A stretch of 28,167 nt of DNA, taken from a virus. Position numbers and translations under genes: made by a program. The first letter of the stretch is position 1, and every line of letters begins with the position of its first letter. The notes beneath the pieces are model-generated. The model searched no databases. It was not told the origin of the DNA and saw nothing but the letters and a program-made list of their open reading frames with translations. The DNA lies in the IMG/VR virus record IMGVR_UViG_3300042445_003369, positions 1-28,167 of that record; one strand, given 5' to 3'. Shown here piece by piece: positions 2,024 through 22,661 of the stretch.

Positions 2024-2383
2024 TTAATTTTCCAGCGGCTCGTCGTCGCTTAATTCGCTTGTGATAAATGCATTCACACCCGCAGCTTTTTTCATGCGTT
2101 CTAACGCACTGGACTCTTCAGAGCTCATGGGAGTGACTTTGTGATTTGACGCTTCGGGATCTTCAGACACCTGGCCCACATTCTCATCAAACGTGTTGTC
2201 TACACCCACTGCTTTTTTTAGCAGTTCGTACTTGGCCTGCAATGGTGGCAAGAATGTATCTGTGGGCACAGGAATCAGTTCTGAATTGCCTGTATGATCT
2301 GCATGAACAGGCTTGGCCTGTTGTGGCATTGATTTTGAATCAATCATATCAGCCATTTGGCGTAGTATTTCTGAGGCTCTCAT
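2024..2383 (-). CDS. Conserved small phage protein, function unknown
   Basis: This is a 119-residue acidic protein starting at ATG 2383, with AAGGA five bases upstream and a CTAAATA late element at 2413-2407. The N-terminus MRASEILRQMADMIDSK looks amphipathic. A short motif appears twice, LLKKAVGVDNTF at residues 54-65 and RMKKAAGVNAF at 96-106, so the protein contains an internal duplication. A similar MMEMAGVKKK string occurs near the end of the 838-aa protein nearby, hinting at a shared interaction motif. The gene lies between the fibre gene and a cluster of candidate head-internal proteins. I recognise it only as a type of gene recurring in uncultured T4-like phages, and no function can be assigned. 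Confidence 0.75.
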   Translation of the reverse strand: MRASEILRQMADMIDSKSMPQQAKPVHADHTGNSELIPVPTDTFLPPLQAKYELLKKAVGVDNTFDENVGQVSEDPEASNHKVTPMSSEESSALERMKKAAGVNAFITSELSDDEPLEN

Positions 2384-2419: not shown

Positions 2420-2800
2420 TCAATATCCTGCAAAGGGCTTGACTGGACTTTGGGTATCAACAAATCTGGGTTCCTGACTGTTGGCTGTGCCTACTAGTTT
2501 TTTGCCGCCAGGTGTTTTGGTCATGGTCAGTGCAGTATCAATCACTTGAGCAATACCTGCATTCATGCCAACAACGACCCCGTGCTCGCCAAATGTTGTT
2601 TCTGAGTCCCAGGCAGGAATCTTGGCGTTGATGCCATCTGTGCCTGCATCACTGCGGGCCCTGGCCATGGCCACACCAAATCTATAGTTGTTGTAGGGGT
2701 CAGAGGCACTGAGTCCAGGAATCACATAGGTGTGTCGCATGGGAGCTGCTTGTTCAGGAGACAAGGCTTTTCGTTCCACAATGAACTCACGTGCTCTCAT
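2420..2800 (-). CDS. Candidate internal head protein with T4-like capsid-targeting start
   Basis: A 126-residue protein whose ATG (2800) overlaps the TGA of the upstream gene as TGATG, so the two are probably translationally coupled. The N-terminus MRAREFIVER matches the T4 internal-protein targeting peptide (MKTYQEFIAE), which the gp21 head protease cuts after the Glu of an I/L-x-E site; FIVE would be that site. The C-terminus DTQSPVKPFAGY closely matches that of the next protein upstream (NTQSPVKAFKGY), so the two are paralogues. Between the ends is GVAMARARSDAGTDG, comparable with VMMAVAMADGSGD in the paralogue. In T4 such proteins are packed in the prohead and some are ejected with DNA. 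That role is inferred here from the N-terminus only. Confidence 0.7.
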   Translation of the reverse strand: MRAREFIVERKALSPEQAAPMRHTYVIPGLSASDPYNNYRFGVAMARARSDAGTDGINAKIPAWDSETTFGEHGVVVGMNAGIAQVIDTALTMTKTPGGKKLVGTANSQEPRFVDTQSPVKPFAGY

Positions 2801-3165
2801 CAGTAGCCTTTGAATGCCTTGACAGGACTTTGAGTGTTGGTGCTGGGAACTTCTTCTGAATCCATGTCACCAGCATTCAAATCAGTATATTCAGCACCTG
2901 CTGCTTTAAATGCTTGTTTCAGCATTTCGTGCTCAATTTCGGTGTAGGGATAGGCACCACGTTTTTTTCCTATCCAGCTTTTTTCATCCATGTCCAATAC
3001 ATCACCTGACCCGTCGGCCATGGCCACTGCCATCATCACACGGTTCAGAGTGTAGTCACTGTTGGCACGTTCAGCATCACCAAAAATAGTTAGGCCTCGT
3101 GTGGCTGCTTGACGGCGAGTTCCAATCTTGCCGTCACGCTCAGTAATAAACTCCTGGGCTCGCAC
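2800..3165 (-). CDS. Candidate internal head protein, paralogue of the next gene, GTG start
   Basis: I place the start at GTG 3165, giving 121 residues that begin MRAQEFITERDG. This aligns with the paralogue downstream and lies two bases after the preceding gene's TAA. A longer reading from 3207 would overlap that gene by about 40 bases. The start peptide has the T4-like capsid-targeting form with a possible gp21 cut after FITE. The middle contains VMMAVAMADGSGDVLDMDEKSW and the end is NTQSPVKAFKGY, both mirrored in the downstream paralogue. The TGA overlaps the next ATG (TGATG). A packaged and possibly ejected head protein is a reasoned guess; no enzymatic motif was seen. Confidence 0.72.
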   Translation of the reverse strand: MRAQEFITERDGKIGTRRQAATRGLTIFGDAERANSDYTLNRVMMAVAMADGSGDVLDMDEKSWIGKKRGAYPYTEIEHEMLKQAFKAAGAEYTDLNAGDMDSEEVPSTNTQSPVKAFKGY

Positions 3166-3167
3166 GT

Positions 3168-3449
3168 TTAGAACACGCTGTTTTGTGCGGAACTTGCTGT
3201 GCCGCATGCGAGAGCAGTAAATGTAGTTCCAACTATGATAAGATAATTTCCTGCACCAACATAAACGTAGTGTGTTGATCCAGCAGGAACTCTAACTACA
3301 TTGGCATATAAATTGCCCACTGCATTGGCAGTACCTAGTGCAGTGGCAAAAACTTGATAGGTAACATCATTAGTGACAGCATTAAATTCTACTTTGTCTG
3401 TTGTCCATAATACATTGCCTGCGGTGTTAACAACTTGAACAGCAGCCAT
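3168..3449 (-). CDS. Small beta-rich protein, function unknown
   Basis: This 93-residue protein begins MAAVQVVNTAGNVLWTTDK and consists of alternating small and hydrophobic residues typical of a beta sandwich. Its ATG overlaps the stop of the 55-aa gene as TAATG. It ends two bases before the GTG start of the next gene, so it belongs to a tightly packed operon. No signal peptide, membrane segment or known motif is visible. A minor virion protein is plausible from position alone. Confidence 0.7.
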   Translation of the reverse strand: MAAVQVVNTAGNVLWTTDKVEFNAVTNDVTYQVFATALGTANAVGNLYANVVRVPAGSTHYVYVGAGNYLIIVGTTFTALACGTASSAQNSVF

Positions 3450-3616
3450 TATTTGCTACCTTCAGGGGGAATTGCAATCACTGGCTGAAACAACTCACGT
3501 GTTTGATGCAGAACGCCGGGAATGTCAACAGGTTGTTGCTTGTAGCCCTGAGTGGCTGGACTGTGCGGATTCAGCACAGGAGGAGTTGTTAAGTTTTCGT
3601 TTAGAGGTTTGTACAT
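3449..3616 (-). CDS. 55-aa Pro-rich small protein
   Basis: A short open frame starts at ATG 3616, preceded by AAAGGAAA, and ends in TAA that overlaps the next ATG (TAATG). It encodes 55 residues rich in Pro, Gln and Asn, beginning MYKPLNENLTTPPVLNPHSP. The coupled overlap, the ribosome site and the lack of any other gene in this 170-base slot support it as real. It looks like an unstructured peptide and its function is unknown. Confidence 0.65.
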   Translation of the reverse strand: MYKPLNENLTTPPVLNPHSPATQGYKQQPVDIPGVLHQTRELFQPVIAIPPEGSK

Positions 3617-3634
3617 TGTGTTTCCTTTATAATA

Positions 3635-5242
3635 TTACCAGGCGCGGCATGACCAATAACGAGCAGATGTCCGGGGTCCTGGATTGTCGCAGTTGTGACG
3701 GGCTCTAAAGCTTCTGCGTCGAGCTGGATTTGATTTCTTGATTGTCATGTTGGGATCACCAAAGTTGACTTTTTTCACGTTGCCGGTCTTGGGATCCTTT
3801 ACATACACTTTGCTTTTGGCCACGTCGCCTTGCATGGGTTTGCCCAGCTGCACTTTGCGGCCTTGGTATTCGGCTTCGCCTAATTCTGTATCATCAAAAT
3901 CGTATTCGTCAAAGTCAGTTGCTTCGTCGTCGCTGGTGTTGTAACTGCCGTCGTCGTTGAAGCCACCTTCGGCTACACCTTGGTTTGCTTCACGCAACCG
4001 CATCATTGGAGCAGCAATTCTTGCAGGGGCCACTGGGGTAACTGGCCTCGGTGTGACCGTTGTGGCATTTGCTGTATTAAATCTTTTGCCAGCAGGTGCA
4101 GCAGGTGCTGCAGGTGCTGCAGGTGCTGCAGGTGCAGCAGGTGCTGCAGGCGGCTCTCCCAAAGCTGGCGCAGTGCGAGCAGCAGGTGCTGCAGGGTTAC
4201 CTTGATTCATCGGTTCCTTAATGGCTGCATCCAATACTGGATTTAAATATTGCGCCCACATTGGTGGGGGTTTTATTGTTCTGAGCTGTCCAATAGTTGA
4301 TTTAAAAATGCTCTGTAGTATTTTTGCAACAGCAGCATCATCAGTTGGGTTAATGCGTTCAAAATAAGTTTGCACACCATCTATAATGCTGGTCAGGCCG
4401 CCAGGTCCGAGTGTCGTTGACGGCCCGCCATTAATCCAGACCTTAAAGGCTTTTAAATCGCGCTCGATTTCGGGATTCTTGGCTTTCATATTGCGTTTGT
4501 CCCACTCACCGCCAGCTCCGTATCTGTAGGCTTCTTCCGCCACATCTTGCTCACGCGGGCTGTCCAGCATCTGCTGCACTTGACGCACATAGCCACTCAC
4601 ATCGCTGGAGCCAATTTCATCATCAGGACCTATGTTCACGCGGTCAGCAACTTCATCCACAGCATTCATCACTTGTTCAGGACCGTACTGGGCCAGCATG
4701 CCAGTGTGTTGCATCATGATACGGTGCAGGATAGCACGAGCCACAGGATTGGACTCGCTGTCGCCTTCCATAACGCCACTAGTTTTCTTGCTGGCAATAT
4801 AGTCAGCAGCAGTGTCCACATAGTCAGCAGCACGATCAATCTTGCTCTGAGTCCACTCAGGCATGTTGTCGTTGTTGCCCAGTAGGTCCATGAGTCGGCG
4901 AGCAGCAGTCACAATGGTGTTGAGATCGTCTTTGGCCATGGAACCTTCTTGATCATACTCACCAGGATCTTGATCTGCAGCATTGCTGTGTTGTTCTGTA
5001 CTACCGCAGCCACAGCCTGAGCCGCCGCACTCCATACAGGTTTCTTCAAATGTGTAGCCGTAGCTTTCCAGCAACTCGATCATGCGATCATCCGCAGCAA
5101 TCACCACACCGTCGCTGCGGCTTTCTACCACCACGCTTTCAATCAGGCATTCTTCACGAATGTTAATGGCAAACATGTCGCCCTCCACAGGATTAGAGGC
5201 AGCGTGTTCGGATTCTTCAAGATAATCGCGTAGGCTTTTCAT
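3635..5242 (-). CDS. Multidomain candidate head-internal protein with conserved Cys/Trp C-terminus
   Basis: The start is ATG 5242, which overlaps the upstream TAA (TAATG) and has AAAGGA upstream; a start at 5266 would overlap the 838-aa gene. The 535 residues begin MKSLRDYLEESE, a possible capsid-targeting peptide with a gp21-type site (YLEE). In order there are a small domain (about 20-68), a Cys cluster CMECGGSGCGC (69-79), a helical segment (104-152), VxEG-type linkers (VMEG 157-160, VAEE 234-237, VAEG 423-426), a helical domain (255-345), an Ala-Pro tract (366-384), an acidic stretch (438-457) and a basic C-terminal block. The block contains VYVKDPKTGNVKKVNFGDP, then NCDNPGP and YWSCRAW. 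I recall similar C-termini in other uncultured phages, but no function is known to me. Confidence 0.75.
   Translation of the reverse strand: MKSLRDYLEESEHAASNPVEGDMFAINIREECLIESVVVESRSDGVVIAADDRMIELLESYGYTFEETCMECGGSGCGCGSTEQHSNAADQDPGEYDQEGSMAKDDLNTIVTAARRLMDLLGNNDNMPEWTQSKIDRAADYVDTAADYIASKKTSGVMEGDSESNPVARAILHRIMMQHTGMLAQYGPEQVMNAVDEVADRVNIGPDDEIGSSDVSGYVRQVQQMLDSPREQDVAEEAYRYGAGGEWDKRNMKAKNPEIERDLKAFKVWINGGPSTTLGPGGLTSIIDGVQTYFERINPTDDAAVAKILQSIFKSTIGQLRTIKPPPMWAQYLNPVLDAAIKEPMNQGNPAAPAARTAPALGEPPAAPAAPAAPAAPAAPAAPAGKRFNTANATTVTPRPVTPVAPARIAAPMMRLREANQGVAEGGFNDDGSYNTSDDEATDFDEYDFDDTELGEAEYQGRKVQLGKPMQGDVAKSKVYVKDPKTGNVKKVNFGDPNMTIKKSNPARRRSFRARHNCDNPGPRTSARYWSCRAW
4092..4151. repeat. 9-bp tandem repeat (GCAGGTGCT), Ala-Pro tract
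   Basis: Six full 9-bp units of GCAGGTGCT or GCAGGTGCA run from 4092 to 4145 on the plus strand, followed by a partial seventh. They encode the Ala-Ala-Pro tract of the overlying minus-strand gene. Unit gain or loss keeps the frame, so linker length could vary between relatives. Confidence 0.9.
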
Positions 5243-7758
5243 TATTGTCCTTTGTATGATTTCCACAAGTTTGCTGTCATTGCAAAAATGCTTTCGTCAA
5301 CTTGCTTTTCTTTGTCGCTGACTGCTTTTTTGAACAGTTCTTTTTTGTCACCATCTTTGTCAACGTCCAGGAAATCAGGCTTCTTTTTCTTGACGCCGGC
5401 CATTTCCATCATTCTAGCAATGGGATCTTGTTCGTTCATGTCATTGTACCAGTCATCTGTGCCGTATGCTTCTTCCTCAGCTTCATCAGGATCCATGCCG
5501 CCTGCTTTTAGGTCATGATAATGATCCAATCGTTCTGCGTCACTTGGTCCTTGACCTTCGTTGGTGTACTGACGTTCTTCTTGGCTGGCAATCACAGGAA
5601 TTGTGGTCTGTCCAGTTGACTTAGGTTTGTTCAGGCCACCTGAGTATTGAAATGCGTCATTGCTGGTTTCAGTATTGGTAGGATAATCTGGCTTGTTTTC
5701 ATCCACCATGTCAGGTGCTTGACTGTAGGCCTGATCATGATCGTGGTCGCTGCCCATGCCAGCCATTTTCAACATCATGGCCAGTTTGTCTGCATCGTCT
5801 CCAGTGGCTGTGATGGTCAGGCTCTTGCCTTGGCCGTCTTGTGCGTCTGCGTTCAGACTCATATTCATGCTCATGCTTTCGTCCAGGCGACTCATGCTTT
5901 CAGAGATCATGTTTTCCAAGTTACGGTTCATGCTGTCATAGATGCCGCCACCAAACGTAAATCCACCACTGGATTTTTTGCCGCCTGCAGCAGGTGCTGT
6001 TGCCACGCTGCCACTCACTGTGGTTTCATCAACTTTTTCTTCTGACTTGGCACTGCGTTTGCTGACTTTTTTGCTGCTGTCAGTGGGACTGTCTGATTCT
6101 TCTGCTTTTTCTGGCAGGCCTTTGTGCTTTGTTGCAGCAAAGTCTTTGGCTGCTTTTTTAGGCATTTCTTTTGCTACTTTGGCAACTGCTCCACTAGCAG
6201 GCTTTTCGCCTTTTTGTGCAGCATGAACCATGCCCATGAACTTTTGTTGCTTTTTGCTTACTGCTTTTTCATCAAGCTCTTCTTCGCTAACTTGTGCGTC
6301 ACCTGACTGTTGATTTTTAATCAAGGTCATTGCTGCATACAGCACAGATTCTAAACGACTAGCAAATCCTTGTGGGAATTCACCACCACGTTGTGCTTGC
6401 TTTGCTACTGCACGAATATCAGCAAGGTCGTTATAAATTTGTTGTGCTTGCCCATGGTCAGAACCTTCTTTGACTTTTTTGCCAGGCTCTTTGTCACTCA
6501 TTTTGTGTCGGGTCACAGCACCTTTGTGCTTGGGTAGGTTTACTTTGCCACCAACACCAAATGCTGAAAAGTCAGGTTTCATGACTTGACCTGTGTCGCT
6601 GTCAGCATTTTTCTTGGGGCGGCCACGACCACGTGAACCTTGTCCAGCTGCTGCTGCGGCTTTTTTCTTGGCAGCAATTGCTTTGGCATCATCTCGATTA
6701 CCATCATATTCAGTACCGTACGTGCCTTTGTGAATGCGGCTGGCAGATTTTTGTGCTTCTGGTTCTCTGCGATTTTTGTAGTCAAACGCATTGTCAGTGC
6801 TGGCTTCATGAACTGTGTCAACATCGGGTCTGGAACCCAGGTAAGTGAAACGACTTGTGGTGTCCCATTCTTGGAATGCTGCTTTTGCTTCTGCTGCACT
6901 AGTGGCCTTGACTTGAGTACTGTATGACTTGCCCGGCTTGCTAGGATCTTTATAAGCAACGGTATAGGTAGTTGCACCTTGCGTTTCGTTCATTTCAGAA
7001 TTACGCCCACGACCGCCACCGATGGCTTTTTTCATTGCTTCAGCAGCAACGTCACCCAGCATTTCGTCTACTTCTTTTTTGGCTCCAGCAATTTTGTCAG
7101 CAAAAGTGATCTTGTCTGTAGGAGGAGCTAAAGCAGCGAAGCTCTTTTGTCTAGCTGGACTCATTGCTTCTTTGGCCATTGGAGGACGGCTTCCACCAGA
7201 ACTTTTTTCTAGACGGCGTAGTAATTCTTCATCGCCAGGGGCAAGTACATCAACTGCTTTCTTGATACCAGAACCAATTTTACCCAAGATGCCTTGCTTG
7301 GGAGGACGACCCATGTCAGGATTTAGATCCATGGCATGTTGTGTGTGCGTTCCTTCTTCAACATCTTCCTTTGGATGACGCAATTTATTCAGTACGGCAC
7401 CAGCAACTTTTTCACCGCGTTCTTTTGAACCATAACGCTCTGCTGCACTCTTGGCAATTTTTTCAAAGTTCTTGCCTGGCTTACCAATGTCTTTGCCGGC
7501 ACGAGCTTTTTTAGCCGAGTAATCGCCAGTGGAACCTTCTGCTACACTTTCGTCATACTTGTTGTATTTGTCGCGAACTGGGTCAAGATCTTTACCATCA
7601 CGGCCTGCCTTGGCCAATGCTTCCATACCTTGTTTGCCGTACTTTTCATAGCCTTTGGCAGCACGACTCATGTCACGCTCATTCAACTGCTTGTGTGTGA
7701 CTTCGGGTGTGGCACGGATGCCATCTAGCTTTTTGTTTAGATCGTAAAAAAATGTCAT
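5242..7758 (-). CDS. Large charged modular protein with AT-hook, DUF3008-like and EF-loop segments
   Basis: An 838-residue, highly charged, mostly disordered protein starts at ATG 7758, with AGAGGA from the end of the preceding gene acting as ribosome site. Modules in order are an N-terminal segment (1-70), a helical AxxRYGS region (78-128), a small mixed alpha/beta domain around 262-298 (TYTVAYKDPSKPGKSY), an AT-hook-like RGRGRPKK (376-383), a helical segment (436-486), a DUF3008-like segment (500-550, with KKQQKFMG and DFAATKHKGLPEK), an acidic C-terminal region and a Ca-binding-like loop DVDKDGDKKE (798-807). Between them short VxE or VxEG sites recur (72, 133, 230, 316, 429, 490, 576, 685, 820). 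DNA-associated head protein or scaffold is a guess; gp21-type cutting at the VxE sites is possible but untested. Confidence 0.75.
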   Translation of the reverse strand: MTFFYDLNKKLDGIRATPEVTHKQLNERDMSRAAKGYEKYGKQGMEALAKAGRDGKDLDPVRDKYNKYDESVAEGSTGDYSAKKARAGKDIGKPGKNFEKIAKSAAERYGSKERGEKVAGAVLNKLRHPKEDVEEGTHTQHAMDLNPDMGRPPKQGILGKIGSGIKKAVDVLAPGDEELLRRLEKSSGGSRPPMAKEAMSPARQKSFAALAPPTDKITFADKIAGAKKEVDEMLGDVAAEAMKKAIGGGRGRNSEMNETQGATTYTVAYKDPSKPGKSYSTQVKATSAAEAKAAFQEWDTTSRFTYLGSRPDVDTVHEASTDNAFDYKNRREPEAQKSASRIHKGTYGTEYDGNRDDAKAIAAKKKAAAAAGQGSRGRGRPKKNADSDTGQVMKPDFSAFGVGGKVNLPKHKGAVTRHKMSDKEPGKKVKEGSDHGQAQQIYNDLADIRAVAKQAQRGGEFPQGFASRLESVLYAAMTLIKNQQSGDAQVSEEELDEKAVSKKQQKFMGMVHAAQKGEKPASGAVAKVAKEMPKKAAKDFAATKHKGLPEKAEESDSPTDSSKKVSKRSAKSEEKVDETTVSGSVATAPAAGGKKSSGGFTFGGGIYDSMNRNLENMISESMSRLDESMSMNMSLNADAQDGQGKSLTITATGDDADKLAMMLKMAGMGSDHDHDQAYSQAPDMVDENKPDYPTNTETSNDAFQYSGGLNKPKSTGQTTIPVIASQEERQYTNEGQGPSDAERLDHYHDLKAGGMDPDEAEEEAYGTDDWYNDMNEQDPIARMMEMAGVKKKKPDFLDVDKDGDKKELFKKAVSDKEKQVDESIFAMTANLWKSYKGQ

Positions 7759-7763
7759 GGGGA

Positions 7764-8369
7764 TTATCCTCTTGGGTTTGCGCCAGTGGCTGGCTTGGGT
7801 TGACGTTTGATATTGGTCATGGGACTCTTGACACCCACTGGCAATTCATTTGTGGTTTTGGCAGCCGGGGTTTTCTCTCCGGCAATGGTGAAACTACTGC
7901 GATATGCGTTCTTCAACACAGCATGATCATATGGACCAGTTGCATAGTCTTTCTTGAGTGCTCGTTGTTCGGCATCTGGCGCAGGGTATGGGCTATCTAA
8001 CAAATCTTTGTTTTGATCTTCAATTTTTTTGCTCTCGATGTCGAGACTTTCTTCGTATGGAGTGGCCATCATCACAATACGATTTGGATCAAGTCCTAGT
8101 ATTTGTGCCAGTTGTTTGATCTGTGGCTCAATGGCTGGGTACTTGAATTCCACATCCACAATGGTCATTGATTGATTAGGGAACGCCGGAAAGTCCGGAA
8201 TTTGCTTGCGCACTGGTGCGGTTTTTGGGTCAGACATCTTGGCAATGTCAAACTGAGCACATTTGTTTTTGAGCTCTTTGAAAAAGCCTGCGGGCACGTC
8301 GCCCACCACCTTGATGCGGTAGTTGTATGTGCGTTCGCTTTCGGCAAGGTATTTTGCAAGTGTATTCAT
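7764..8369 (-). CDS. Conserved phage protein with ferredoxin-like pattern and targeting-like start
   Basis: A 201-residue protein starts at ATG 8369, with AGGA in a roughly 12-nt leader behind a late element (AATAAATA). The N-terminus MNTLAKYLAESE again has the shape of a capsid-targeting peptide (YLAE cut). Residues 15-110 follow a beta-alpha-beta pattern: YRIKVVGDVPAGFFKELKNK, then MTIVDVEFKYPAIEPQIKQL and a helix leading to NRIVMMATPYEE. The last 90 residues are polar and Pro-rich, ending in ANPRG. The AGA GGA of that ending also supplies the ribosome site of the 838-aa gene. I recognise the TIVDVEFKYPA segment from other T4-like phages, but its function is not known to me. Confidence 0.75.
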   Translation of the reverse strand: MNTLAKYLAESERTYNYRIKVVGDVPAGFFKELKNKCAQFDIAKMSDPKTAPVRKQIPDFPAFPNQSMTIVDVEFKYPAIEPQIKQLAQILGLDPNRIVMMATPYEESLDIESKKIEDQNKDLLDSPYPAPDAEQRALKKDYATGPYDHAVLKNAYRSSFTIAGEKTPAAKTTNELPVGVKSPMTNIKRQPKPATGANPRG

Positions 8370-8386: not shown

Positions 8387-8394
8387 TATTTATT
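8387..8394 (-). promoter_or_regulatory. Late promoter element AATAAATA
   Basis: AATAAATA reads on the minus strand just upstream of the 201-aa gene. The predicted start near 8381 gives a short leader containing AGGA before ATG 8369. It overlaps the stop of gp16 and would serve the 201-, 838- and 535-aa operon. Confidence 0.6.
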
Positions 8395-14882: not shown

Positions 14883-14932
14883 GGCATTTGGTAAAAATGG
14901 TGTTCTACAGTGCCCTTTGCAAAGGTCCTGCT

Positions 14933-14940
14933 TATAAATA
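14933..14940 (+). promoter_or_regulatory. Consensus late promoter TATAAATA, leaderless geometry
   Basis: TATAAATA ends four bases before the ATG at 14945. T4 geometry would start RNA at the AUG, and no ribosome site lies between. The spacing is the same as for gp16. Confidence 0.65.
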
Positions 14941-14944
14941 CCAT

Positions 14945-15292
14945 ATGAACCGTCCTGTATGTCCTGTTTGTCAGCAAAGGCCTTGTGCCGTCAACTACTG
15001 TCGCAACGATGTGACTCACTATCGCTCAAGATGTGAGAACTGCATTAGAAAAAACAAGGGATTGCGCAAGCGAGAGCCCAGCTGGCAAGCAGCAGGCTAC
15101 AAGAAAAAAATGGTGTGTGACCGATGTGGGTTTAGGGCCAGGTACTCAGCACAAATGCTGGTGTATCACATGGACGGTAGACTTACCAACACCGAAGTTC
15201 GAAATCTTAAATCAGTCTGTAAAAACTGTGAAATAGAACTGGCCAAGAGTGAGCTGCCCTGGCGACAGGGCGGGCTAGAACCCGATGTTTGA
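14945..15292 (+). CDS. Zinc-binding HNH-like protein
   Basis: I start this 115-residue protein at ATG 14945 (MNRPVCPVC), just behind the late element; an ATG at 14888 would place the promoter inside the gene. It contains four CxxC pairs: C6/C9, C30/C33, C58/C61 and C92/C95. The second half, CDRCGFRARY to YHMDGRLTN and RNLKSVCKNC, is laid out like an HNH zinc-finger nuclease (His75, Asn87, CxxC). The first catalytic His of HNH motifs appears to be Tyr74, so activity is uncertain. Basic residues dominate, consistent with nucleic acid binding. It is the only plus-strand gene among minus-strand neighbours and its 3' end overlaps the kinase gene by 18 bases. Free-standing HNH proteins of this type recur in T4-like phages. 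Confidence 0.75.
   Translation: MNRPVCPVCQQRPCAVNYCRNDVTHYRSRCENCIRKNKGLRKREPSWQAAGYKKKMVCDRCGFRARYSAQMLVYHMDGRLTNTEVRNLKSVCKNCEIELAKSELPWRQGGLEPDV
15256..15284. terminator. Paired hairpins at a convergent gene end
   Basis: GCCCTG-GCGA-CAGGGC (15256-15271) forms a perfect six-base stem with a GNRA tetraloop on the plus strand. It is followed by CGGG-CTAGAA-CCCG (15271-15284). They straddle the overlapping ends of the HNH-like gene and the kinase gene. No U-tract follows on either strand, so termination is uncertain. Confidence 0.45.
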
Positions 15293-15898: not shown

Positions 15899-16681
15899 TC
15901 ATGTTGTTTTTTTTTCAAAAAAGTATTTTATTATTGGGGCAACTGGATCAAATTCATTGTCTTTGTGTGCAAAATTGTAATTGCCCGGAACTGCATGATG
16001 ATTGTTATGATACGCTTCCTCCGGATTTATCCAACGAATATAGTTGTTGTTGTAGCTTTTGTCCAAGGTGTTGTAATTTCTATAAGATCCTGGTAGATTT
16101 AAATGTGCAAAAAAATTGATAAACGGAGCATGCAGCCATCCAAATCCAATTGGCGCCAATACAAAAAATAACAAAAACGTTGTTCCAAACAACGCCCATG
16201 CAGATATAATTATTGTAGCCCAAATTTTAAAATAATGGTCGTGTACAAATACCAATACCGGATCTCGAAATAATTCACGCGGAAGTTTGTTTACTTTTTT
16301 TACATTTACCCACCAATTGTTAGATCTCACAGTGAATGTACTGAACAAGCTTTGCCATCTTCCATGATGTGGGCTATGCACATCCAACGGCTGATCAGCA
16401 TTTTTATGATGATGCCTATGCATTGTTGTCCAGGAGATAGGACTACCTTGTCCTAACAATACCGAGGTAACTACCATTAACAAGTGTTGTGCTTTTTCAG
16501 TTTTAAAACTACCGTGGCAAAAGTATCGATGCAGTCCTATATGAAATCCTACTAATTTTATAAATCTAAAATACAAGTAACTGATCAGCAACAGCATCAG
16601 TTGACTCTGTGTCACAGCTATCCAAACCACTGCTGTCATTCCGGCTATTCCACTTATCCATAACAGACGATGCATAATCAT
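15899..16681 (-). CDS. Membrane fatty acid desaturase
   Basis: This 260-residue protein carries the three histidine boxes of membrane acyl desaturases: HRYFCH (51-56), HRHHH (88-92) and HNNHH (225-229), with an extra His47 before box one. Hydrophobic segments at about 5-45, 63-80 and 151-190 fit the usual hairpin-spanning topology with boxes on one side. The second box context (GQGSPISWTTMHRHHHKNAD, 77-96) is typical of the delta-9 stearoyl-type family. It would bring a di-iron centre into host membranes and introduce a double bond into acyl chains, an auxiliary metabolic role. The ATG overlaps the DexA stop (ATGA), so the genes are coupled. The gene is visibly more AT-rich than its neighbours and ends with an A-run of nine, suggesting recent acquisition. 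Confidence 0.9.
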   Translation of the reverse strand: MIMHRLLWISGIAGMTAVVWIAVTQSQLMLLLISYLYFRFIKLVGFHIGLHRYFCHGSFKTEKAQHLLMVVTSVLLGQGSPISWTTMHRHHHKNADQPLDVHSPHHGRWQSLFSTFTVRSNNWWVNVKKVNKLPRELFRDPVLVFVHDHYFKIWATIIISAWALFGTTFLLFFVLAPIGFGWLHAPFINFFAHLNLPGSYRNYNTLDKSYNNNYIRWINPEEAYHNNHHAVPGNYNFAHKDNEFDPVAPIIKYFFEKKTT

Positions 16682-19194: not shown

Positions 19195-19223
19195 ATTATA
19201 GCAGATTACCCATTTTTGGTCAA
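19195..19223 (-). promoter_or_regulatory. Sigma-70-type promoter for the 380-aa gene
   Basis: TTGACC (19223-19218), a 17-base spacer and a perfect TATAAT (19200-19195) on the minus strand. The predicted start near 19188 leaves about 19 bases before the GTG with AAAGGAG. It overlaps the end of the 89-aa gene. Confidence 0.82.
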
Positions 19224-19475
19224 GTCAGCAGAAAGTAGTACTAAAGTAGCATCTGTTTCATTGCGGAATGTGATCCAATACGGACGGTACCCATCTACCC
19301 GGCCATGCCCAAAGTAACTGTACCATAGATCATGCCGCCCGCCACCAGGGTCTAATCGGGTTCTGACTGTTATTTCGTATGGTACAGATTCAGTGTAGCT
19401 AGGAAATCTCAGGCCCACAGTGTGTCCATGTTCTCGGAACTGGCGAAATCTGCGGTTCAGTTTGACTACTTTCAT
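19206..19475 (-). CDS. Small conserved protein, function unknown
   Basis: An 89-residue basic, aromatic-rich protein: MKVVKLNRRFRQFREHGHTV, then VRTRLDPGGGRHDLWYSYFG and YRPYWITFRNETDATLVLLS. The last block looks like a beta strand pair with ITFRNETDATLVLL, possibly a small OB- or SH3-like fold. I recall similar proteins in uncultured T4-like phages but no function. A host-type promoter (TTGACC, 17 bp, TACAAT) lies just upstream, six bases from the ATG, with no ribosome site, so the RNA is probably leaderless and early. It is divergent from gp14. Confidence 0.75.
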   Translation of the reverse strand: MKVVKLNRRFRQFREHGHTVGLRFPSYTESVPYEITVRTRLDPGGGRHDLWYSYFGHGRVDGYRPYWITFRNETDATLVLLSADLTKNG

Positions 19476-19481
19476 ACAGCT

Positions 19482-19510
19482 ATTGTAGCACTTGTTCGAT
19501 TATTGGTCAA
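19482..19510 (-). promoter_or_regulatory. Sigma-70-type promoter, leaderless, for the 89-aa gene
   Basis: TTGACC (19510-19505), a 17-base spacer and TACAAT (19487-19482) on the minus strand. Six bases separate the -10 from the ATG at 19475, putting the predicted start on the A of AUG. It is divergent to the late element of gp14. Confidence 0.72.
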
Positions 19511-19516
19511 TCTGCC

Positions 19517-19524
19517 CATAAATA
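19517..19524 (+). promoter_or_regulatory. Late promoter CATAAATA, near-leaderless, for gp14-gp15-Nudix
   Basis: CATAAATA ends seven bases before the ATG at 19532. T4 geometry gives a leader of zero to two bases and no ribosome site is seen. It would drive the plus-strand operon of gp14, gp15 and Nudix. Confidence 0.65.
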
Positions 19525-19531
19525 CTCGACT

Positions 19532-20842
19532 ATGCCACGCCTGTCACTTTACCGCCCTAACCGCACACGAGATTATCAATTTATGGATCGTACCATCAGT
19601 GAAATGTACACTGTGGGCGGCCTGGATCTTTTTGTGCACAAATATCTTGGACCGCAAACAGGCGGCGAAGATTCTGCCGTCAGCGGCAACTACGATGCCA
19701 CACAGCCTATATATGATGAACTCAGTCCATTAAACATTCAAGACTTGCTGTTGTTGGAAAACCGTGACAGAATCTATGATCAAGATGTATATGTCATGCG
19801 GGGTGTTTACCAAACACAAGACGTGGATTTTGACCTGTCACAGTTTGGCCTGTTTCTCAACAATGATACCTTGTTTATTACATTTCACTACAATGACATG
19901 ATTGACACTTTTGGTCGCAAGCTCATGAACGGTGATGTGCTAGAAGTGCCCAATCTCAAAGACTACAATCCCTTGAACACTGCGATTCCTGTGCCTTTGC
20001 CCAAGTACTACATGATTCAAGACGCTGCTTTTGCAAGCGAGGGCTTTGCCCAAACTTGGCAACCGCACACCTGGCGAGTCAAAGCCACGCCAATGACCAA
20101 TGCACAAGAAGTCAAAGACATATTGAAAGCACCTGTTGTGAGCGAAAACATCTGGGATGATGGCAATTTCTACCCCATGGGTTCAATTGTGAACCAAGGT
20201 GATGTGTACTATCGAGCCACTCAAAACACACCCGCTGGTACTGCCATAACCAATTCCACCTTCTGGTCCTTGTACACTCCGCTGACCGAAAGCGATGTGT
20301 TTAGTACCAGACCCAAAGATCAAGAAATCAATGATGCCATACTTACACAGGCCGATATTGAAGTTCCGTTGTCAGGCTACGACACACAACAGTTCTATAT
20401 AGAGCCCACTATCAACGGTGCTCCTGCTAATCCCACAAATTTAACTGGTGATGATTCAGACGTGACTGTGGACGGCACACAGGGCGGCATGTCCGTGACT
20501 CCCGACAGCCCAGGCTACACTAGAGGTTACCTGACTGGTGATGCTGTTCCCAATGGACTTCCGGTTACCACAGGTATTGCTTTTCCATTGAATCCAGTCA
20601 GTGGGGATTATGTACTTCGTCTAGACTACAAACCCAATCGTTTGTTCCGTTATGATGGCCGAGTGTGGGTCAAAATTGAAGATGCTGTACGAACTGATCT
20701 CAACAATGGGCCAAATAACAAGACCCAACGCAGCGGCTTTGTAAATAACACTGACACAGTGACCACCACAGACCGTGGCACAATTCCAAGTCGTCAGAGT
20801 CTGTCAGAAATACTGAAACCTCGAGCTGACAACGGCGGCTAA
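19532..20842 (+). CDS. gp14: Neck protein (gp14-like) with carbohydrate-binding-like insert
   Basis: This 436-residue protein starts MPRLSLYRPNRTRDYQFMDR. The N-terminal 200 residues resemble cyanophage-type gp14: VGGLDLFVHKYLGP (28-41), LLENRDRIYDQDVYVMRGVY (74-93), DFDLSQFGLFLNNDTLFITF (99-118), GRKLMNGDVLEVPNL (128-142) and WQPHTWRVKATPM (176-188). gp14 joins gp13 at the neck, linking head and tail. Residues about 207-250 (GNFYPMGSIVNQGDVYYRAT, then a Trp) have the Tyr/Trp-spaced pattern of small carbohydrate-binding modules, and the last 180 residues are beta-type with no match I know. T4 gp14 has 256 residues, so about 180 are extra. The TAA at 20840 overlaps the ribosome site of gp15 (TAAGGAG). 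Confidence 0.72.
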   Translation: MPRLSLYRPNRTRDYQFMDRTISEMYTVGGLDLFVHKYLGPQTGGEDSAVSGNYDATQPIYDELSPLNIQDLLLLENRDRIYDQDVYVMRGVYQTQDVDFDLSQFGLFLNNDTLFITFHYNDMIDTFGRKLMNGDVLEVPNLKDYNPLNTAIPVPLPKYYMIQDAAFASEGFAQTWQPHTWRVKATPMTNAQEVKDILKAPVVSENIWDDGNFYPMGSIVNQGDVYYRATQNTPAGTAITNSTFWSLYTPLTESDVFSTRPKDQEINDAILTQADIEVPLSGYDTQQFYIEPTINGAPANPTNLTGDDSDVTVDGTQGGMSVTPDSPGYTRGYLTGDAVPNGLPVTTGIAFPLNPVSGDYVLRLDYKPNRLFRYDGRVWVKIEDAVRTDLNNGPNNKTQRSGFVNNTDTVTTTDRGTIPSRQSLSEILKPRADNGG

Positions 20843-20856
20843 GGAGAAACAAAATT
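20841..20856 (+). promoter_or_regulatory. Ribosome site and ATT start codon of gp15
   Basis: AAGGAG at 20841-20846 is followed by seven bases and then ATT at 20854. No ATG, GTG or TTG occurs in any frame between the ribosome site and the conserved N-terminal codons, so ATT is the best start. Confidence 0.7.
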
Positions 20857-22248
20857 CAACAATTTTTTTATGACAATCAGATAAGACGGTTCTTGCTGCA
20901 GTTTACTAGAATCTGCAGCAACTTCCAGGTAGAGTATGGGCGAGAAGAAAACAGCGAAAACGCTGCATTACTTCGTGTGCCTGTTCGCTACGGCGATGCC
21001 AGTCGCAATGCACAAAACATCATTCAGGAAAACAGTCGTAACTCCATGCCGGCTAGTCCACTGATGACATTTTATGTTTCTGGATTAGACTACGACCGTC
21101 CTAGAATGCAGGATCCAACATTTGTGAGCAAGATTGCTGTGCGACAAAGAACCTACGATGAGTCTACAGAAACATACGAAAACACACAAGGCAATGCTTT
21201 TACCATTGAAAGGCTGATGCCTGTGCCCTACAAACTGGGCATCACGCTAGATATTTGGACTTCCAACACCAACCAAAAGTTTCAGATTCTAGAACAGATG
21301 TTGACCCTGTTCAACCCCAGTTTAGAAATTCAAAGCACAGACAACTACATTGACTGGACCAGTCTCAGCATAGTAGAACTAGAATCATCTGTGTGGACTT
21401 CCAGGACTATCCCAATGGGTGCTCAGGACACAATTGACATTGCTACTCTCAAATTTAACTTGCCTATCTGGATCAGTTCTCCTGCCAAGGTCAAGAAACT
21501 AGGCGTGGTAGAGCGTGTGATTGCTTCCATGTACGATGCTCAGGGCGACCTAAATGAAGCTGTGACCAACAATGATCTGTTGCTGGGCACTAGACAACGT
21601 ATCACTCCGTTCAACTATGGACTTGTGGTTGTGGGCAACAAGATTCAATGTCTGCAGCCCACACTTACATCGGTTGAAGCCAACGACTCACTTGATCCCA
21701 ATGCTGTAGTTTCTGACAGCAACCTGTTATGGCCTGCTGTGATTGACATGTATGGTACACTGAGACCTGGAGTAAGTCAACTGCGTCTTGAACAAGACAA
21801 CGGCACCGAAGTAATTGGTACCATTGCACTAGATCCCAGCGACGATCGTTTTGTAATTTTTGATCCTGATTCAGACACGTTGCCACAAAACACTCTGGCA
21901 CCTGTAGACGCTGTGATTGATCCACTGGTGAGTGGACCACAAGACGGCCTGGATTCTGCTGTGGAAGGGCAACGCTATCTCCTGGTAGAGGCCACTGGTG
22001 ATCGCAACAACGAGTTCAACCCTGTGGCTTGGCTGGGTGCCAATGGTCGTCCACTGGTGGCTGAAGCCAACGATATCATCGAGTATGTCAACGGCTACTG
22101 GCGGGTAATGTTCAGAGCAGCAGGTGCCAGTGCGGGTCAGTATGTGACCAATATCACAACCAGTATTCAATACGAATGGCTTGGCTCAGGATGGGTCAAA
22201 AGTTATCAAGGGGTCTATCCTGGAGGCACATGGAGTCTGGTGCTTTAA
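20854..22248 (+). CDS. gp15: Tail sheath stabiliser (gp15) starting at ATT
   Basis: A 464-residue protein read from ATT 20854. Its first residues, QQFFYDNQIRRFLLQFTRI, match the T4 gp15 start (FYNSSFRRY) and cannot be reached from ATG 20870, which ends after four codons. Other gp15-like blocks are FQVEYGREEN, LLRVPVRYGD (about 40-49), FYVSGLDYDRPRMQDP, FTIERLMPVPYKLGITLDIW, ILEQMLTLFNPSLEIQ and FNLPIWISSPAKVKKLGV. gp15 caps the tube and sheath at the head-proximal end. T4 gp15 has 272 residues; the last roughly 200 here, after ERVIASMYDAQGDLN, are a beta-rich extension. The next open TTG is at 20893 but lacks a ribosome site and would remove the conserved start. It overlaps the Nudix gene by 19 bases. 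Confidence 0.85.
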   Translation: MQQFFYDNQIRRFLLQFTRICSNFQVEYGREENSENAALLRVPVRYGDASRNAQNIIQENSRNSMPASPLMTFYVSGLDYDRPRMQDPTFVSKIAVRQRTYDESTETYENTQGNAFTIERLMPVPYKLGITLDIWTSNTNQKFQILEQMLTLFNPSLEIQSTDNYIDWTSLSIVELESSVWTSRTIPMGAQDTIDIATLKFNLPIWISSPAKVKKLGVVERVIASMYDAQGDLNEAVTNNDLLLGTRQRITPFNYGLVVVGNKIQCLQPTLTSVEANDSLDPNAVVSDSNLLWPAVIDMYGTLRPGVSQLRLEQDNGTEVIGTIALDPSDDRFVIFDPDSDTLPQNTLAPVDAVIDPLVSGPQDGLDSAVEGQRYLLVEATGDRNNEFNPVAWLGANGRPLVAEANDIIEYVNGYWRVMFRAAGASAGQYVTNITTSIQYEWLGSGWVKSYQGVYPGGTWSLVL

Positions 22249-22661
22249 AAGCAGTAGGTGTTTGGTTTCGCAGCCTGGACACTGGTCGTTATCTGTATCT
22301 GTTACGCAACGACTCCAAGCATCCTGGTGCTTGGGGACTGCCTGGCGGCAAACTAGAGCCTGGAGAGACCTTGCTGGGCGGTATGGAACGTGAGTGTATT
22401 GAAGAACTAGGCAGCTTTCCCACTTACTTGCGACTGATTCCAATAGAAAAATTCACTACCTCTGACGGTGCTTTTGAATATCACACCTGGGTATGTGTGT
22501 TGGCCACAGAGTTTACTCCCAGACTAAATCATGAGCATCTGGGTTATGCCTGGATTGATGCCGGAATCTTTCCACGACCCATGCACCCGGGCCTGTGGAA
22601 TACCATCAACATTGATGCTGTGCAACAAAAAATCCTGCGTGTGGAGCAGGATCTTTTGTGA
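22230..22661 (+). CDS. Nudix hydrolase
   Basis: A 143-residue protein whose Nudix box is complete at residues 40-62: G-x5-E (Gly40 to Glu46), seven residues, Arg54-Glu55, then Glu58-Glu59 and Gly61. The box follows RNDSKHPGAWGLPGG, which is typical of MutT-like enzymes. The substrate, a nucleoside diphosphate linked to another group, cannot be told. I start at ATG 22230, behind GGAGG and inside the end of gp15; a longer reading from 22176 would overlap gp15 much more. The C-terminal 40 residues contain YAWIDAGIFPRPMHPGLW. It is the last gene of the plus operon, and its 3' end holds a terminator-like hairpin. Confidence 0.93.
   Translation: MESGALKAVGVWFRSLDTGRYLYLLRNDSKHPGAWGLPGGKLEPGETLLGGMERECIEELGSFPTYLRLIPIEKFTTSDGAFEYHTWVCVLATEFTPRLNHEHLGYAWIDAGIFPRPMHPGLWNTINIDAVQQKILRVEQDLL
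22626..22657. terminator. Bidirectional terminator in the 3' end of the Nudix gene
   Basis: ATCCTGC (22632-22638) and GCAGGAT (22646-22652) pair around GTGTGGA. On the minus strand the stem is followed directly by a T-run of six, a strong intrinsic terminator pattern for the 1322-aa operon. On the plus strand CTTTTG follows, a weaker version. Convergent genes end three bases apart here. Confidence 0.75.

Follow-up and report, generated by a model that had tools for sequence, protein, structure and literature searches.

In bacteriophage T4, a short N-terminal peptide sends proteins into the prohead and is removed; the internal proteins of this phage are described as basic, and the anti-restriction internal proteins of T-even phages change fast. 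In the T4 record, the internal proteins IPII and IPIII start with MKTYQEFIAE, while Alt, a head-packaged and ejected ADP-ribosyltransferase with a propeptide cut by gp21, starts with MELITELFDE. The presence of such a capsid-targeting sequence (CTS) on unrelated proteins is already known for T-even phages (PMC3012670, PMC9026906), and, according to a review covering work by Black, in the CTS of IPIII residues 4 and 7 matter for targeting and residues 8 and 10 for processing (PMC9026906). Head-packaged ADP-ribosyltransferases (ARTs) are also known (PMC9503650), as are polyvalent proteins and MuF-fused effectors (PMC5512222, PMC9503650) and the ejection proteins of phiKZ and SPN3US.

Here we analyzed a stretch of DNA of 28,167 bases (the window), an IMG/VR virus fragment from a T4-like myophage (IMGVR_UViG_3300042445_003369), in which four genes (p126, p121, p535 and p201) begin with a tag of one of two forms, MRAxEF[IV]xE or M[KN][ST]LxxYLxE. 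The N-terminal 9-10 residues of these proteins very probably constitute a lineage-specific T4-type capsid-targeting and gp21-cleavage peptide, which would load unrelated proteins. As in the CTS of IPI, IPII and IPIII (MKTYQEFIAE), the peptide is N-terminal, comprises 9-10 residues with an aromatic-aliphatic-x-Glu end, and stands on unrelated proteins in gp21-encoding phages, basic cargo being common in the wider set. In contrast to the T4 CTS, the MRA-type tag is one residue shorter, has a near-invariant R2-A3 and, while keeping F-I-x-E, lacks an aromatic counterpart of T4 residue 4; it also fronts tens of families from uncultured lineages, jumbo-size genomes among them, and the members in the window are conserved, unlike the hypervariable T4 internal proteins. 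Alt has a likewise tagged parallel in a PF03496 protein of another contig (L421), although its own N-terminus differs. The polyvalent and MuF-fused effectors share ART-PolyVal, Kinase-PolyVal and GNAT domains with the proteins described below, which are instead separate proteins with a short, probably removable tag, fused neither to head proteins nor to each other. The phiKZ and SPN3US proteins likewise belong to large phages with prohead-protease processing of head proteins, but the protease family (S80 for phiKZ, S77 for gp21) and the cleavage motifs are different (PMC5694885). MRA-type strings were not found as this motif in the open-access literature searched, and a search of 50,697 named phage records gave no relative of p126; both results suggest that the MRA-type is a known signal in a new sequence form, found in uncultured lineages and with a much wider cargo list.

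Organization of the tagged gene block

Genes recognisable in the window included gp4, gp19, gp18, gp13-like, gp14-like, tail sheath stabilizer and DexA-like exonuclease genes. Downstream of gp4, the minus strand carries a block composed of p169, p201, p838, p535, p93, p121 and p126 (Table 1). The original prediction had listed four T4-like N-termini in this region, on bodies unrelated except for the first two. All four were located on the minus strand, yet p121 starts with GTG (position 3165) and not with ATG, its mechanically defined ORF extending upstream to 3207. Sequence comparison identified p126 and p121 as paralogues, and p535 and p201 as unrelated to each other and to that pair, as had been expected. 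The start of p119 possibly represents a decayed or different signal.

Table 1. Coordinates of the block features in the window and of tagged cargo in other contigs (cargo domains called by Pfam curated cut-offs).
Feature	Position	Strand	Description
p119	2024-2383	-	begins MRASEILRQMADMID (MRASEILRQM); tag-like, without Glu at position 9
p126	2420-2800	-	CTS-bearing, ATG start; at least 118 relatives in IMG/VR
p126 targeting peptide	2774-2800	-	MRAREFIVE; predicted cut after E9
p121	2800-3165	-	CTS-bearing paralogue of p126
p121 targeting peptide	3139-3165	-	(M)RAQEFITE; predicted cut after E9
p93	3168-3449	-	small conserved protein in block, without CTS
p535	3635-5242	-	CTS-bearing; conserved N-terminal GDxFAINIREECLIE domain and C-terminal module
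p535 targeting peptide	5213-5242	-	MKSLRDYLEE; predicted cut after E10
p838	5242-7758	-	long mosaic protein in block, without CTS; phrog_30268 domain, 3.2e-21
p201	7764-8369	-	CTS-bearing; ferredoxin-like (ribosomal S6-like) body; 213 homologues
p201 targeting peptide	8340-8369	-	MNTLAKYLAE; predicted gp21 cut after E10
Late-promoter-like box	8387-8392	-	aaTAAATAtac, T4 late -10 type; 23 nt upstream of p201, heads block
Tagged cargo	L421:6643-7242		ADPrib_exo_Tox (PF03496), 9.5e-13, over cut-off
Tagged cargo	L433		GNAT, 2.9e-8, over cut-off
Tagged cargo	L398, L356, L392		GH19, to 4e-14, over cut-off
GH19 with Tat after tag Glu	L356:2992-3609; L392:3861-4493 (-)		chitinase/lysozyme-type
Tagged cargo	L357		DUF6934, over cut-off
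Tagged cargo	L396		ART-PolyVal, 4.4e-6, below cut-off
Tagged cargo	L421:5135-6643		Kinase-PolyVal, below cut-off

Seven of the nine TAAATA boxes on the minus strand of the window stand 10-31 nt upstream of gene starts (binomial P = 1.6e-9), the genes behind them being p201, p169, gp19, gp18, gp13, the exonuclease/desaturase region and p119. Judging from the box before p201 and from those preceding other genes, gp18, gp19 and gp13 among them, the tagged block is probably a late operon. No excess of late promoters was detected upstream of tagged genes in other loci (21% vs. 25% local background), so this argument is limited to the window.

Elsewhere in the window, a fatty acid desaturase gene, unusual as a phage metabolic gene, lies among structural genes (15899-16681, minus strand; PF00487, 5.2e-15). 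Genes for gp14-like, sheath-stabilizer-like and Nudix proteins occupy the plus strand (19206-22661) between minus-strand structural genes, and an HNH-like ORF with a weak PHROG match (14888-15292, plus strand) breaks the minus-strand gene order.

Conservation of the peptides and of the protein bodies

In the p126 family, residues M1, A3, E5, F6 and E9 of the peptide were invariant over 98 sequences, the rows having been selected with a motif filter; among p126/p121 homologues found by body similarity without that filter, the peptide was kept down to approximately 30% identity. In a larger p126/p121 set, columns 1, 2, 3, 5, 6 and 9 ranked 1-9 of 121 in conservation and columns 10-13 ranked 84-117, a collapse directly after the Glu; this set was motif-filtered as well, which affects the first nine columns and leaves the drop after the Glu unaffected. 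The p126 bodies were nevertheless 62-87% identical over their full length among the best 80 relatives, and neither a known domain in profile searches nor a fold match was obtained for this protein.

The p201 family shows the consensus MK[TS]FxxYLxE, with columns 2, 4, 7, 8 and 10 within the top 13 of 195 and columns 3, 5, 6 and 9 variable; here conservation runs on past the Glu to S11. The conserved columns 4 (F), 7 (Y), 8 (L) and 10 (E) are the positions published as important in the T4 CTS. A fold search with p201 gave a weak, generic ferredoxin-like match, and a p201 homologue matched phrog_14802, "virion structural protein" (5.9e-5). In p535, the pattern MK[ST][LF]xxY[LI]xE was retained in nearly all homologues of the N-terminal part. 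Both p201 and p535 thus have a hydrophobic or aromatic residue 4, an aromatic residue 7 and conserved residues 8 and 10. Extra gp21-like sites inside p838 and p535 were not in excess with respect to shuffled sequences. The last 80 residues of p535 (3635-3880, minus strand) form a module, SFRARHNCDNPGP..ARYWSCRAW, that also occurs in proteins of pelagiphages, roseophages and methylophages with no other relation to p535.

The alignment of homologues therefore placed the tag among the most conserved stretches, as the original prediction had anticipated, yet the p126 and p201 bodies, expected to vary, were also conserved among relatives, in contrast to the fast-diverging bodies of the T4 IPI* type. 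The four tagged proteins of the window had no recognised domain, and this, together with a conservation unlike that of the fast-changing T-even anti-restriction proteins, weakens the proposed reading of the block as an anti-defence or takeover set: an anti-defence role of these conserved proteins is unsupported. The same observations bear on an alternative in which they are scaffold-core or structural head components, brought to the core by the tag and cut by gp21, with no role as ejected effectors. We regard this alternative as a serious possibility, slightly short of even; it shares targeting and cleavage with the preferred reading and differs from it on ejection, and the confidence placed in the two overlaps. 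In its favor, more than 100 relatives keep p126, p121 and p201 in their structural region, p201 homologues include a "structural protein" of phage PA5oct and a match to a virion structural PHROG, and defence-type domains are absent from p126, p121 and p201. For the four proteins of the window, we see roughly equal odds for a head-core component and for an ejected takeover factor.

The evidence from virions comes from PA5oct, a cultured Pseudomonas jumbo phage with the same head-gene order as the relatives of the window, in which the sequence record annotates the p201 homologue EST35_0202 as "structural protein, ESI-MS/MS". The N-terminus of EST35_0202, MKSFRDYYDAS, follows the pattern without having the Glu, so its presence in the virion need not mean cleavage. 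PA5oct was also considered as a direct test, but the broad motif at annotated starts failed to separate proteins detected by mass spectrometry from undetected ones; given this result and the missing Glu, only the detection of the homologue in the virion was used.

Relationship of the tag to gp21 and gp23

A search for the gp21 protease, suggested in the original prediction, gave no gene within the 28 kb of the window fragment, while in related contigs gp21 (PF03420) was present in 17 of 26 tested and, over two tests, in 15 of the 16 contigs of at least 140 kb. In these relatives, gp21 and gp23 (PF07068) are separated by about 2 kb, and the genes run portal, small protein, gp67-like, gp21, gp22 and gp23; in G001, gp21 lies at 34640-35272. 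A contig of 342,865 bases (IMGVR_UViG_3300032268_000986, G002) with three tagged genes had no gp21 or gp23 match, and is either incomplete or endowed with divergent head genes.

The gp23 proteins of the relatives have a conserved KYLKE/NASAG or KYLKE/SSAG (slash, predicted cleavage point) just before the mature region, with NTRKYLKE/NASAGSTASGNIAT where T4 has FLTE/AEIGG, and this site is likely the counterpart of that of T4. Small tagged proteins, e.g., MRAQEFIKE/NASVGATSSGSVAT, closely repeat the gp23 junction of the clade, which ties the Glu of the tag to the processing site of gp23. The proposed gp21-type I/L-x-E site was thus found again in the gp23 of relatives, and p201 and p535 agree with the T4 positions defined by mutagenesis; the T4-type CTS reading itself was supported by a single N-terminal module on many unrelated bodies and by the drop in conservation after the Glu in p126/p121.

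The tagged block adjoins tail genes in the window, which would fit a tag that is left uncut and directs proteins to another late structure, such as the tail, the baseplate or an intracellular compartment. We consider this improbable, since the tag agrees with the head CTS of T4 and with the gp23 site of this clade, conservation ends at the Glu in p126/p121, and in two proteins described below a Tat signal begins straight after that residue. Capsid targeting of the tagged proteins is strongly inferred, and their ejection is likely. According to the preferred capsid-targeting reading, the tagged proteins would be synthesized late, the tag would bind the scaffold core of the prohead, and gp21 would cut after the Glu of the tag. 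The mature proteins would then stay in the head with the DNA and, at infection, some or all of them would probably enter the host. The same tag would serve throughout the genome for loading proteins unrelated to one another, of which a minority resemble takeover enzymes.

Frequency of the tag and controls

Across 161 related loci, the strict motif fronted 293 of 2,417 ORFs, a figure inflated by homologues, and stood behind only 2 of 11,226 Met residues located internally; two related genomes, of 300 and 353 kb, gave 0 of 1,352 and 2 of 1,647 for the latter count. When MRAxEF[IMV]xE was searched in IMG/VR with two codon-degenerate patterns, 158 of 179 sampled matches started an ORF of 40 aa or more that had no ATG further upstream, among the matches listed. 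A control pattern with permuted codons and an equal number of specified bases gave 25 matches across IMG/VR, 4 of them at ORF starts, and in 17 large contigs 54 pattern matches were obtained vs. 0 for a reversed-pattern control. Similar proportions at ORF starts were found for the T4-type pattern MK[ST][FY]xEFxxE (75/84) and for the YL-type pattern (74/82). Run over all of T4 as a positive control, the T4-type pattern retrieved ipII, ipIII and 61.1 only. Gene 61.1 (NC_000866, 18966-19130, minus strand) encodes a hypothetical protein of 54 residues with the CTS-like start MKTFKEFIKE. Cyanophages and pelagiphages were considered as cultured carriers, but the MRA-type was absent from nine named phages; Phosso had one chance-looking pattern match, not of the MRA-type.

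That so many unrelated genes have the tag at their start codon could also reflect an element of the nucleic acid, for example a recombination site or translation-initiation element, with no role in the protein. However, synonymous codons within the tag vary freely (AGA/CGA, all GCN, GAG/GAA, TTT/TTC), and both Arg-codon patterns of the MRA-type tag are abundant in IMG/VR; this variation indicates selection on the peptide and makes a nucleic-acid feature exceedingly improbable.

Diversity of the proteins carrying the MRA-type tag

At least 447 distinct MRA-tagged proteins fell into 41-67 body clusters, depending on stringency; since the singletons include fragments and distant relatives, about 50-60 unrelated families appears to be a fair estimate. 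In 63 clusters not belonging to the p126/p121 family, residues 2, 3, 5, 6, 7 and 9 were fixed or nearly so, which is largely owed to the search pattern itself, while no preference was observed from residue 10 onward. Clearly basic proteins made up 29 of 54 cargo clusters vs. 64 of 509 background ORFs (12.6%; P = 2e-11), the background consisting of ORFs of at least 150 aa not matched in length to the cargo; the four tagged proteins of the window were not markedly basic.

Most of the tagged cargo had no recognised domain in the Pfam search. Among the remainder (Table 1), effector-like assignments (ART, GNAT, kinase-like) lend the proposed takeover set some indirect support outside the window. 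These domains, together with GH19, are difficult to picture as head-building parts, and in the related genomes G001 and G005 tagged genes are scattered as well as clustered, some of them far from structural genes; both observations argue against the alternative of scaffold-core or structural head components. PF03496 was not a common cargo (one hit in 41 contigs, a further difference from Alt), and ART cargo is, as judged by this model, real but rare. Proteins of L356, L237, L301 and L421:7242-7946 that looked ART-like by eye had no Pfam or PHROG support and were not counted, nor was that of L346, nucleotidyltransferase-like by sequence reading only.

The Tat signal PF10518 aligned from residue 9 in two of the GH19 proteins (MRATEFVTE/MDRRGFLRGLAGAG), in one of them over the cut-off; this arrangement directly after the tag Glu suggests a two-stage address. 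We tentatively propose, as a reading held just below an even balance, that MRAxEF[IV]xE is a general loading tag of uncultured T4-like phages, including jumbo phages, for a large and swappable set of ejected proteins, two-stage capsid-tag/Tat signals included. The cargo would then comprise ADP-ribosyltransferases, acetyltransferases, kinases and nucleotidyltransferases; removal of the capsid tag would expose the Tat signal on the GH19 cell-wall enzyme, which could be injected and then go to the periplasm.

Since the proteins that phages inject have unrelated bodies, they are difficult to identify as such. A short and highly specific N-terminal tag would allow candidates to be read from metagenomic phage genomes, reaching many families without a known domain, and the T-even capsid-targeting idea would yield a prediction open to testing throughout a large uncultured group. 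In contigs L422 and L421, runs of neighboring MRA-tagged genes with unrelated bodies were observed, representing candidate cargo islands.
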